Assembly (NCBI GenBank): GCA_945876565.1 | Contig: CAMCOS010000008.1 | Location: 1-64,000 of the forward strand | Source of the DNA: Lautropia mirabilis | Lineage (GTDB): Bacteria; Pseudomonadota; Gammaproteobacteria; Burkholderiales; Burkholderiaceae_B | Direction of reading: 5' to 3' | DNA: 64,000 nucleotides | In this document: piece after piece, positions 1 through 58,235 of the stretch | Layout of the letters: every line of letters starts with the position of its first letter | Position numbering within the stretch: the stretch's first letter is position 1 | Position numbers and translations under genes: made by a program | The notes under the pieces: generated by a model | The model's database searches: none | What the model saw: the letters and a program-made list of their open reading frames with translations, nothing else | Told to the model about the DNA's origin: nothing

Positions 1-130
1 CACGTTCCGATACATTACTCACCCGTTCGCCACTCGCCGCCAGACCGAAGTCCGCGCTGCCGTTCGACTTGCATGTGTAAGGCATCCCGCTAGCGTTCAA
101 TCTGAGCCAGGATCAAACTCTTCAGTTCAA
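1..130 (-). rRNA. rrs: 16S ribosomal RNA, 5' end (partial)
   Basis: The complement of positions 101-120 is the universal bacterial 16S forward-primer site (AGAGTTTGATCCTGGCTCAG), so a 16S gene runs leftward out of the window. The mature 5' end is placed near 130 by comparison with the usual start just upstream of this site; the exact end is approximate. Only the first ~130 nt are present. The leader, antitermination signals and promoter lie to the right at 131-650. Confidence 0.97.
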
Positions 131-3328: not shown

Positions 3329-4123
3329 ATGCTTTCTTACCCACAAATCGATCCCATTGCCTTTGAACTCGGTCCACTTGCCGTGCACTGGTACGGCTTA
3401 ATGTACCTGGTTGGATTTGCCAGTGCCTGGCTCTTGGGGCGCTGGCGAGTCAGGCGTGGCCTGACTTGCGTCACGCTAGTTGATTTTGAAGACATGCTCT
3501 TTCTCGCCATGCTCGGTGCCGTGGTGGGCGGGCGAATCGGCTACGCCCTCTTCTATCAGCCCGGATACTATTTGGATCACCCGATCGAGATTTTGTTTCT
3601 CTGGCAGGGTGGCATGTCGTTTCATGGCGGCTTGCTCGGGGTTTTGTTTAGTCTCTGGCTATTTGCACGACGCAAACAGTATCGATTTCTAGAACTCGGT
3701 GACCTGATTGCCCCCCTGGTACCATTTGGGCTTGCGGCCGGCAGACTCGGGAATTTCATCAACGGCGAACTTTGGGGCAGACCAACCGATTTACCCTGGG
3801 CCATGATCTTTCCTGGGGCTCAGGATGGTATCGGGCGCCACCCCTCACAGATCTATCAATTTGCACTGGAAGGCATTTTGTTGTTTGTCATCATTTGGTG
3901 GTTCGCGCGCAAGCCACGGCCGACTGGACAAGTCAGCGCAGTCTTTTTGATGGGCTACGGCATTTTGCGATTCGTTGCCGAATTTGGGCGCGAACCAGAC
4001 GCGTTTCTGGGCTTGCTGATGGCAAACCTCAGCATGGGTCAGTGGCTTTGCATTCCCATGATCCTAGTGGGTGCCTGGCTTTATGCTCATTCGAGCAAAG
4101 CCAGTGCACCAAACAACAATTAA
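3329..4123 (+). CDS. lgt: Prolipoprotein diacylglyceryl transferase
   Basis: Lgt transfers diacylglycerol from phosphatidylglycerol to the lipobox cysteine of prolipoproteins, the first step of lipoprotein maturation; Pal and LolB in this window are likely clients. The 264-residue protein has about seven membrane segments. The MSFHGGLLG motif near residue 100 holds the essential His, and [16 protein letters not shown] near residues 137-152 is the Lgt signature. The start at 3329 gives the usual hydrophobic N-terminus, although no strong ribosome-binding site precedes it. It diverges from ilvD and converges on the 6S RNA gene, ending 2 bp from the RNA's 3' end. Confidence 0.97.
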
Positions 4124-4125
4124 AA

Positions 4126-4303
4126 GCCCCGCGTGTGCCGTCAAGACCGGCATCTCGAACCCTAGGTTCAAGGTCGGTCGCCTCGTGACGGGTTTCGAGC
4201 ACATCTGACTAGAGACACGCATTCCTACCCAACTAACCAGCGACCTATATGCCATAAGCATCGGTTCAGAGAATTTAAGGTCAAGTCACGAACACCGCAG
4301 GGA
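4126..4303 (-). ncRNA. ssrS: 6S RNA (regulator of sigma-70 RNA polymerase)
   Basis: 6S RNA mimics an open promoter and sequesters sigma-70 holoenzyme in stationary phase. The minus strand directly downstream of zapA carries a transcript of about 178 nt whose ends pair: CCCUGCG at the 5' end with CGCGGGG at the 3' end. Inside is CCUUGAACC followed by AGGGUUC, the hairpin also seen in E. coli 6S RNA. The zapA-ssrS order is conserved in proteobacteria. The usual next gene, fau/ygfA, is absent and lgt converges instead. End positions are estimated from the closing stem. Confidence 0.9.
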
Positions 4304-4318
4304 CAACCTGCATCGACA

Positions 4319-46906: not shown

Positions 46907-46983
46907 TGGCTGGGGAGGAAGGATTCGAACCTTCGCATGCCGGAATCAAAATCCGGTGCCTTAACCAACTTGGCGACTCCCCA
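46907..46983 (-). tRNA. tRNA-Gln (anticodon TTG)
   Basis: The minus strand folds as a full cloverleaf: acceptor TGGGGAG/CTCCCCA, D arm GCCAAGTTGGTTAAGGC, anticodon arm CCGGATTTTGATTCCGG with anticodon TTG, T arm GAAGG-TTCGAAT-CCTTC, discriminator G and an encoded CCA. It lies between ispE (1 bp from its stop) and prs, a conserved arrangement in betaproteobacteria, so it is probably processed from a longer transcript. Confidence 0.97.
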
Positions 46984-56409: not shown

Positions 56410-56965
56410 TTAAAAGGTGTAGGCCAGACCCATGCCGGCAACTTGGCTACGGGCAGTGCGCACCATCGCCTAGTTGTTCGCGATCGACGCATAGACATAA
56501 GCCGTTACATATGACGATATCGCATTTAAAAACGCGACACTAAGAACTTGCTGTGTCGCGGTCTGACCTGAAGCCGCGAGCGCGCCGCGTGGCTGCATGG
56601 CCTGCCATGAGAGGCTCGCTGTCCAGCTCTGACATAGTGGCACGGTAGCACCAAGGAATACAGATCTCGCGTTGTAGCCGTCTTGAAATCAGATCAGAGA
56701 ATCAGGCGTTGTTATCCCCAATCCGCGATCGGACTATGCTGAGCCAGGCAATTGGCCATCAAAAGCGCCATTTGAACTTTCACCAAGAATCAACGAGACG
56801 GCCGCAAGCTTCAAGTCATAGCGAGTACCTGCTAACCAAGCGCTTGGCCCTTTGTAGTTCAAACCTGTCGGTGTTGTCGCTGGTGCAATCGCTTGATCAT
56901 AGGCAGCCGCCAAAACCAGACCGCCACGCTCACTAATATCAAGTCGGTCGTTTCTGGCAGCACGC
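56410..56965 (-). pseudogene. Decayed outer-membrane porin (C-terminal part)
   Basis: One reading frame from about 56965 to the TAA at 56410-56412 encodes porin-like beta strands: GGLVLAAAYDQAIAP, AWLAGTRYDLKLAAVSLILG, YNARSVFLGATVPL, QQVLSVAFLNAISSYVTAYV, and a final SQVAGMGLAYTF ending in Phe, the outer-membrane sorting signal. In-frame stops interrupt it at 56734-56736 (TAG), 56689-56691 (TGA) and 56470-56472 (TAG), and the N-terminal part is absent. The frame is otherwise preserved, so decay by nonsense mutation is recent or slow. Family: Gram-negative 16-strand porins common in Burkholderiales. Confidence 0.8.
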
Positions 56966-56969
56966 ACAT

Positions 56970-57003
56970 AAAAAAAAGGCCCGAGACCTAATGGTATCGG
57001 GCC
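56970..57003 (-). terminator. Rho-independent terminator of the candidate sRNA
   Basis: Minus strand: GGCCCGA pairs with TCGGGCC (7 bp) plus three inner pairs ACC/GGT across one mismatch, followed by eight T (56970-56977). It is a near-ideal intrinsic terminator, and no intact gene ends upstream of it within 300 bp. Confidence 0.9.
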
Positions 57004-57076
57004 AAATCCACCAAAGGAGGAGGGTGGAGGAGACAATCTTGCCGAGTCGCTCTCGGACTTGCGTAACCTAGCAGTA

Positions 57077-57116
57077 TCAGACGCAATCAAGCGATATCAG
57101 ACGAAATCAGCCGAAA
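57077..57116 (-). repeat. Four tandem degenerate decamers
   Basis: On the plus strand TCAGACGCAA, TCAAGCGATA, TCAGACGAAA and TCAGCCGAAA follow in exact 10-bp register, with a weaker CTAGCAGTA before them. In RNA this gives repeated UCUGA/CUUGA-UxxCG units inside the candidate sRNA. The 10-bp period equals one helical turn, so protein binding to DNA is an alternative. Confidence 0.75.
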
Positions 57117-57190
57117 TTTTTTGCCGGTTTCTTGATGTGGCTTATTCGGGAAACTACCAACACTGGTACGGTTTAGCGACACACTGCTGA

Positions 57191-57218
57191 ACTATACCAG
57201 AAAATTTGTGCGATGCAA
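57191..57218 (-). promoter_or_regulatory. Promoter of the candidate sRNA
   Basis: Minus strand: TTGCAT (57213-57218), 16-bp spacer, TATAGT (57191-57196) preceded by TG one base upstream (TGGTATAGT, extended -10). Transcription should start near 57184-57185. No start codon with a long frame follows, which supports an RNA gene. Confidence 0.7.
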
Positions 57219-57310: not shown

Positions 57311-57982
57311 CTAAATGTAGTAAGCACTTTTAGTCATAACTTTAGATATTAATTTCATAACGCTTGGTATCGGAAACGGTAGTTCAACACCACCATGTCG
57401 CTGCGCAGTTCGCCGATGCTCAATCTCATCATCGCGCATCTGCGTGATGATCTTACGTGAACGCTCATCGCCCTGTGGCAGCAACTTCAAGTGATCATTT
57501 AAATGAGCCTCCACCTGGCGCTCTGTTTCAGCCATGAAGCCCAGGTTGTAACGCTCACCAGCACGGCTGGCGATAAGCCCAAGCGCAAACGAACCGGCGT
57601 ACCAGACTGGATTGAAGAGGCTCACCCTGCTGTTGACCTCTTTTAGGCGATCCTGGCACCAAACCAAATGATCAACCTCTTCGCGCGCGGCCTTGCGCAA
57701 CAGCGCTTTGGTCTGCTCCCGCTCCACCGCCAAGGCCTGACCACGATACAAAGCTTGCGCACAAACTTCGCCGACATGATTAATACGCATTAATCCAGCC
57801 ACATGACGCTGTTGCGGTGGCGTCAGTGACTCAGGCGCCTCGCTCGAGATGCGCCCAGCGGGGTTGGGCCTAGAGGCAACGGCTGCACCAGACAAGACCT
57901 GCAAGGCCACGGACGCCTCACCAATGATCTGATCGAGCAAGCCCTCGCTGCGGCGCATGAGACGTCGGTTCAATGTCGTCAT
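57311..57982 (-). CDS. coq7: Demethoxyubiquinone hydroxylase Coq7
   Basis: Coq7 (di-iron) performs the late C6/C5 hydroxylation of ubiquinone synthesis. The 223-residue protein has ligands in GLMRINHVGEVCAQALYRGQ (about 62-81), KAAREEVDHLVWCQDRLKEV (about 97-116), ETERQVEAHLNDHL (about 150-163) and MRDDEIEHRRTAQRHGG (about 182-198): E, ExxH, E and ExxH in order. It is the bacterial stand-alone version. It stands alone, 90 bp upstream of the sRNA promoter (no terminator between) and 150 bp from a 14-bp minisatellite that precedes the divergent OsmC-like gene. Confidence 0.96.
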   Translation of the reverse strand: MTTLNRRLMRRSEGLLDQIIGEASVALQVLSGAAVASRPNPAGRISSEAPESLTPPQQRHVAGLMRINHVGEVCAQALYRGQALAVEREQTKALLRKAAREEVDHLVWCQDRLKEVNSRVSLFNPVWYAGSFALGLIASRAGERYNLGFMAETERQVEAHLNDHLKLLPQGDERSRKIITQMRDDEIEHRRTAQRHGGVELPFPIPSVMKLISKVMTKSAYYI

Positions 57983-58137
57983 AATTCTTGGCTTCCTGTA
58001 TCTTGAGTTTGCTGTGCAAAATTATCGACTCGGCGCTGCAATGCCACCTCGATATGACCAGTGCCCAAGGCATAATCGCCAGCCAATGATTACCCGATCT
58101 CATTTTAGTCGCCGACTGACTAGCAACCAAGCTTAAC

Positions 58138-58235
58138 CCCGACACCTTTACCTCGACACCTTTACCTCGACACCTTTACCCCGACACCTTTACCTCGACA
58201 CCTTTACCTCGACACCTTTACCTCGACATCCCACC
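58138..58235 (+). repeat. 14-bp minisatellite (six copies plus a partial)
   Basis: CTCGACACCTTTAC is repeated head to tail at 58138, 58152, 58166, 58180, 58194 and 58208, with C instead of T at the second position in copies 1 and 4, and a decayed seventh copy to 58235. It sits between divergent coq7 and the OsmC-like gene, ending 53 bp before the latter's ATG. Near-identity suggests recent slippage. It has no spacers, so it is not a CRISPR array. Confidence 0.95.

Follow-up and report, generated by a model that had tools for sequence, protein, structure and literature searches.

A conserved PhaR-operator-like element in the promoter of a coq7-linked S17/RF02278 small RNA

The DNA downstream of coq7 in the window, by which we mean the whole stretch of 64,000 nucleotides analyzed here, raises the question of whether it holds an RNA gene of its own and, if so, to which family the gene belongs and what controls it. 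The initial annotation had proposed a novel RNA gene with an extended -10 promoter, internal hairpins, a C-rich run with CCUCC and a terminator ending in eight U. All of these elements were found (Table 1), while the claim of novelty was not upheld. Our covariance search (cmscan) revealed a match to the Rfam family RF02278, named "Betaproteobacteria toxic sRNA", at 56971-57035, covering model positions 1-64 of 64 with 67.2 bits (E 2.3e-11) against a gathering score of 50 bits. The locus is thus a member of a known family, and the idea of a novel sRNA family was rejected. As in RF02278, there are two hairpins, the second being an intrinsic terminator, and the CU-rich sequence is unpaired at the 5' end and in the loop. 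The source genome carries a single copy. Resemblance to NmsRb, anti-hemB, SorY and SorX was also noted, all with sub-threshold scores, and these candidates were set aside.

Table 1. Features of the sRNA locus, with positions in the window
Feature	Position	Strand	Basis
coq7 (2-polyprenyl-3-methyl-6-methoxy-1,4-benzoquinone monooxygenase)	57311..57982	-	ORF; syntenic upstream neighbor
PhaR/PhbF-operator-like palindrome TTGCATCGCACAA (TTGTGCNNNGCAA on the other strand); left half is the -35 hexamer	57206..57218	-	conservation
-35 box TTGCAT	57218-57213	-	sequence; 16 nt upstream of the extended -10
Extended -10 TGG-TATAGT (TGGTATAGT)	57191..57199	-	sequence
5' leader of the primary transcript, ~150 nt	57037..57185	-	poorly conserved in alignment
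Mature core, ~65-67 nt	56970..57036	-	RF02278 match and fold
CU-rich run UCUCCUCCACCCUCCUCC (segment UUGUCUCCUCCACCCUCCUCCUUUGGUGGA)	57034-57017	-	sequence
Seed Site 1: single-stranded 5' end UUGUCUCC, then UCC in the first stem; complementary to GGAGGAGACAA	57029..57036	-	fold
Hairpin 1 (UCCACC/GGUGGA); loop CUCCUCCUUU (57022-57013) is seed Site 2	57007..57028	-	fold
Intrinsic terminator: stem-loop 57003-56978, then U8	56970..57003	-	fold and covariation

An orthologue of Bordetella pertussis S17

The sRNA gene is encoded on the minus strand, flanked by coq7 and a decayed gene (56410-56970). In most relatives, too, the sRNA comes after coq7 in the same orientation, for example in Bordetella, Achromobacter, Alcaligenes, Castellaniella, Advenella and Pigmentiphaga. 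In B. pertussis the sRNA S17 (CT_433) sits between BP3151 and coq7/BP3152 (PMC11722255), and since the sRNA of the window occupies the same place by coq7, it is the orthologue of S17. As read from the sequence, the assignment is also based on the long leader with a short 3' core, the promoter type and the seed sequence. PS17, with the composition TTGCAT-17-TACTAT and a start mapped 7 bp downstream, is a sigma-A promoter that yields a 190-nt RNA with a triphosphate end, which RNase E converts to a stable 67-nt form (PMC11722255). In the window, the start is predicted at about 57185, so that the transcript, with the U-run included, would measure about 215 nt. A simple motif scan found the terminator and did not list the promoter, which was too weak for its cut-offs; nearly all relatives carry a -10-like hexamer at the same spacing, and the promoter is conserved.

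A covariance search of related genomes, which had been put forward as a check on the initial annotation, showed that the RNA is conserved: RF02278 was matched in 186 of the 200 genomes sampled from the same family. Across the order a match was obtained in 80 of 120 sampled genomes (49 above the cut-off). Of 64 coq7-linked loci, 61 have the same 33-nt seed region TTGTCTCCTCCACCCTCCTCCTTTGGTGGATTT and three differ from it at two end positions, and Site 1 is kept in all loci aligned. Over the part corresponding to S17S positions 2-28, the window is identical to the coq7-linked loci of several Bordetella species, a comparison that lies outside B. pertussis itself. Among 18 diverse sequences all 6 pairs of hairpin 1 are invariant, and the terminator stem covaries, with 7 of 10 pairs changed on both sides, none broken and 100% of cells paired (0/500 shuffles). 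Constraint thus acts on the sequence of the seed and on the structure of the terminator. Some Pigmentiphaga relatives (L022, L067, L092 and L102) have two tandem sRNA copies, 380-540 nt apart, an arrangement reminiscent of the NmsR RNAs in Neisseria, which also occur in tandem.

For the 69-nt 3' part the folding energy is -26.7 kcal/mol with z = -5.3 (0 of 200 shuffles as good), whereas the whole 220 nt reaches only z = -1.65, and thus the structured RNA is the 3' third of the transcript. The leader sequence is not conserved in the alignment of relatives, which makes a 3' fragment of about 65 nt the most likely effective RNA. For the independent gene of about 218 nt proposed initially, the abundant species is, on the model of S17, probably the RNase E-processed 3' piece of 65-67 nt and not the full transcript. 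The leader also carries 4.2 copies of a 10-nt repeat (ATCAGACGAA) at 57076-57117 that is absent from relatives.

Several features of the surroundings may be recorded. The decayed gene at 56410-56970 (minus strand), which begins directly after the sRNA terminator, resembles an outer-membrane protein, with a porin-like C-terminus (AGMGLAYTF) and internal stops; Pfam gave no significant match for it, and the porin origin was judged by eye only. Upstream of coq7, between that gene and an ORF named OsmC-like by eye, a 14-bp tandem repeat (CTTTACCTCGACAC) occupies 58132-58228 in 6.9 copies with 95% matches. The window also contains a 6S RNA (RF00013) at 4122-4306 (minus strand, 61.9 bits), a tRNA at 46910-46983 (minus strand) and a 16S rRNA 5' end at 1-128 (minus strand).

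Alternative views of the RNA itself were weighed against this orthology. That the sRNA has no promoter of its own and is cut from the 3' UTR of the coq7 mRNA would agree with the shared strand, the distance of ~125 nt separating the predicted start from the coq7 stop, the failure of a scan of the window to find a clear terminator in between, and a conservation limited to the 3' end of the transcript. We nevertheless regard it as very unlikely. In nearly all relatives the gap between coq7 and the sRNA holds a -35/-10 pair together with a conserved palindrome, the two tandem copies of Pigmentiphaga are found at a greater distance downstream of coq7, and the orthologous long form S17L withstands an exonuclease that attacks 5'-monophosphate ends and is transcribed in vitro from PS17 (PMC11722255); by analogy, the conserved promoter and the 5'-triphosphate end of B. 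pertussis S17L disfavor a UTR origin. We also give a very low probability to a dual-function RNA whose leader encodes a small protein. A putative 32-codon ORF has been described in B. pertussis S17L (PMC11722255), and a 32-codon TTG ORF is also present at the locus of the window, but frames and peptides differ among relatives, which have no start-to-stop frame in common, and a conserved leader peptide was accordingly rejected; moreover, no frame with an ATG or GTG start inside the window transcript overlaps the core. The original statement that there is no coding frame needs amendment to the extent that a 118-codon frame starting with TTG crosses the sRNA. It runs through the terminator into the decayed gene and has no Pfam match, and was therefore rejected as a coding ORF, and relatives do not share the frames that overlap the core. 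The least probable view is the one suggested by the Rfam name, namely a toxin of a toxin-antitoxin pair. RF02278 members are said to inhibit Escherichia coli when present on cloning plasmids (Kimelman et al. 2012, as cited in PMC4603805), growth inhibition upon overexpression in E. coli being what gave the family its name, and overexpression of the Burkholderia cenocepacia homologue ncS27, which has been linked to carbon use, slows growth. Exponential growth of E. coli BL21 was, however, unimpaired by overexpression of S17S (PMC11722255), the phenotype of an S17 deletion is confined to target regulation, no antitoxin partner was seen at the locus, and near-universal, mostly single-copy conservation fits a core regulator.

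Mode of action and candidate targets

The proposal that the CCUCC motifs serve as anti-Shine-Dalgarno seeds has been demonstrated for the orthologue S17/CT_433 (PMC11722255, PMC12235514). Site 1 of S17 pairs with ribosome-binding regions, as proven by compensatory mutations on BP2158 (PMC11722255), and RIL-seq in B. pertussis linked CT_433 on Hfq to 36 chimeric partners with a common Shine-Dalgarno-like motif (PMC12235514). By analogy, a sigma-70 promoter at the locus of the window would produce the primary transcript of ~215 nt, and RNase E would probably trim the leader to yield a stable, Hfq-bound RNA of 65-67 nt. The latter would offer two CU-rich seeds, namely the 5' end UUGUCUCCUCC and the loop CUCCUCCUUU, in addition to the terminator. 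These seeds would pair with purine-rich Shine-Dalgarno regions of many mRNAs, including those of transporters, catabolic enzymes and regulators, and block their translation. Processing, Hfq binding and repression are attributed to this locus from its orthologues. We consider the identity and mode of action of the sRNA to be very well founded, a judgment that excludes the PhaR layer discussed below.

Candidate targets in the source genome were sought by pattern searches for complements of Site 1 with a near ATG, using reversed patterns as controls. Perfect 8-mer complements numbered 2 versus 0 for the reversed pattern and 7-mers 7 versus 4; with so few over control, no enrichment is claimed. 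GGAGGAG ahead of an ATG occurs seven times. Among the predicted targets, a SoxA-type cytochrome gene has a perfect 11-nt complement of the sRNA 5' end over its Shine-Dalgarno sequence (GGAGGAGACAA), and the gene of a TRAP DctP solute-binding protein has an 8-nt complement over its own. The predicted DctP target fits the abundance of transporters among the targets listed for S17.

The palindrome over the -35 box

The -35 hexamer forms one half of a palindromic 13-mer, and the other half, GCACAA, is located outside the -35 box and yet conserved to a similar degree in the alignment of relatives. A sigma-70 promoter does not require this right-hand half. The 13-mer TTGTGCNNNGCAA is exact in 50 of the 63 coq7-linked sRNA promoters and present with at most one mismatch in 58, compared with no exact and 9/315 one-mismatch occurrences in first-order Markov controls. 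The consensus of PhbF (PhaR), footprinted in Herbaspirillum seropedicae, is TG[N]TGC[N]3GCAA (PMC3206438); TTGTGCGATGCAA, which overlaps the promoter, is exact in the core TGC[N]3GCAA with one mismatch in the flanking TG. The sRNA promoter element also differs at a single position from the PhaR consensus described for S. meliloti, 21 nt in length (PMC12542648). Taken by itself, however, this degenerate consensus lacks specificity, giving 14 sites in 64 kb at no more than one mismatch, so that the argument for PhaR is built on the 13-mer and on how well it is conserved. A second PhaR-like palindrome (TTTGCTGTGCAAA) was seen at 58004-58024, just upstream of the coq7 start, such degenerate matches being common by chance.

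Phasin promoters are classical PhaR targets. Upstream of phasin genes from 29 genomes, the 13-mer was exact in 14 and had at most one mismatch in 23, some of the rest being mis-called ORFs, while the controls gave 1 exact match in 145. Across the order, the element was found with up to one mismatch in 11/26 RF02278 promoters versus 2/130 controls, and is therefore widespread but not universal. In the source genome the 13-mer has 18 sites, versus 4 for the reversed pattern. Most matches fall inside genes, and the few located in or next to intergenic regions include those of a phasin gene, isocitrate lyase and the sRNA. The isocitrate lyase site (TTGTGCGTTGCAA; source genome L117, contig C6 near 80523) lies ~80 nt upstream of the gene, and PhaR control of the glyoxylate shunt is possible. 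The source genome itself carries phaR (PF07879, 105 bits). Among the sampled genomes, 13 of the 14 lacking the sRNA also lack a PhaR hit; these are mostly reduced or incomplete genomes, and so the co-absence was not counted as independent evidence.

Based on the above, we infer, with a probability of roughly 0.6, that PhaR, which binds PHB, represses the sRNA promoter by way of the palindrome at the -35 box, and that S17/RF02278 belongs to the core of the PhaR regulon. PhaR would hold the promoter off until carbon excess leads to the formation of PHB granules, to which PhaR would be drawn. The sRNA thereby released would damp further substrate uptake and catabolism, alongside the control of phasin and isocitrate lyase. 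A direct precedent for PhaR control of an sRNA may be seen in Sinorhizobium meliloti, where AniA/PhaR represses the sRNA MmgR via a site in its promoter (PMC12542648, PMC8401924).

The main competitor, that the palindrome is bound by a different regulator or serves RNA polymerase only, as a promoter feature, appears to us the less probable of the two but deserves serious attention. Half of the element is the -35 box, and the sRNA is present in six sampled genomes that gave no PhaR hit, two of which are listed with 100% completeness. Furthermore, the level of S17 in B. pertussis depends on BvgA and Hfq (PMC11722255), and the Bvg response is not known to involve PhaR. On the other hand, a requirement of RNA polymerase sits poorly with the conservation of the GCACAA half beyond the -35 box, and the same 13-mer marks phasin promoters and matches the footprinted PhbF sites. 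Control of the S17/RF02278 sRNA by PhaR was not found in any published report in our search of mostly open-access literature, which is not a claim of priority; a literature search on the motif letters gave nothing.

Relation to known systems and significance

The locus resembles that of B. pertussis S17/CT_433 (PMC11722255, PMC12235514) in its position beside coq7, its sigma-A promoter with a TTGCAT -35 box, its long leader and 3' core, the Site 1/Site 2 seed region and the terminator, while the leader differs in sequence and length and the predicted total is ~215 nt instead of the 190 nt of S17. The two hairpins, CU-rich unpaired seeds and terminator are shared with the double-hairpin RNAs ncS03, ncS05, ncS27 and ncS62 of B. 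cenocepacia (PMC5688073), of which there are four copies compared to one here. Neisseria NmsRb/RcoF1 (RF02877) has similarly placed CU-rich seeds and an anti-RBS mechanism, but differs in an extra 5' hairpin, tandem copies and a different terminator; with 36.6 bits for RF02877 versus 52 required, the sRNA of the window is not a member of that family. MmgR has a PhaR (AniA) site in its promoter and is PhaR-repressed (PMC12542648, PMC8401924). It is, however, alphaproteobacterial and not matched by the RF02278 model, and the parallel concerns upstream control only.

As a gene, the locus adds a further orthologue to those of a known sRNA. The novelty lies in the computational evidence for a conserved PhaR-operator-like element in its promoter, which offers a testable answer to the question of how a near-universal sRNA is controlled. 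The authors of the S17 study postulated an unidentified repressor of PS17 (PMC11722255), and a 2021 review described the riboregulation of PHB in Cupriavidus necator as undeciphered (PMC8401924). If the proposed control is true, PhaR could be the repressor postulated for Bordetella, and the system would constitute a betaproteobacterial counterpart of PhaR-MmgR, linking carbon storage in the form of PHB to the post-transcriptional shutdown of uptake and catabolism.
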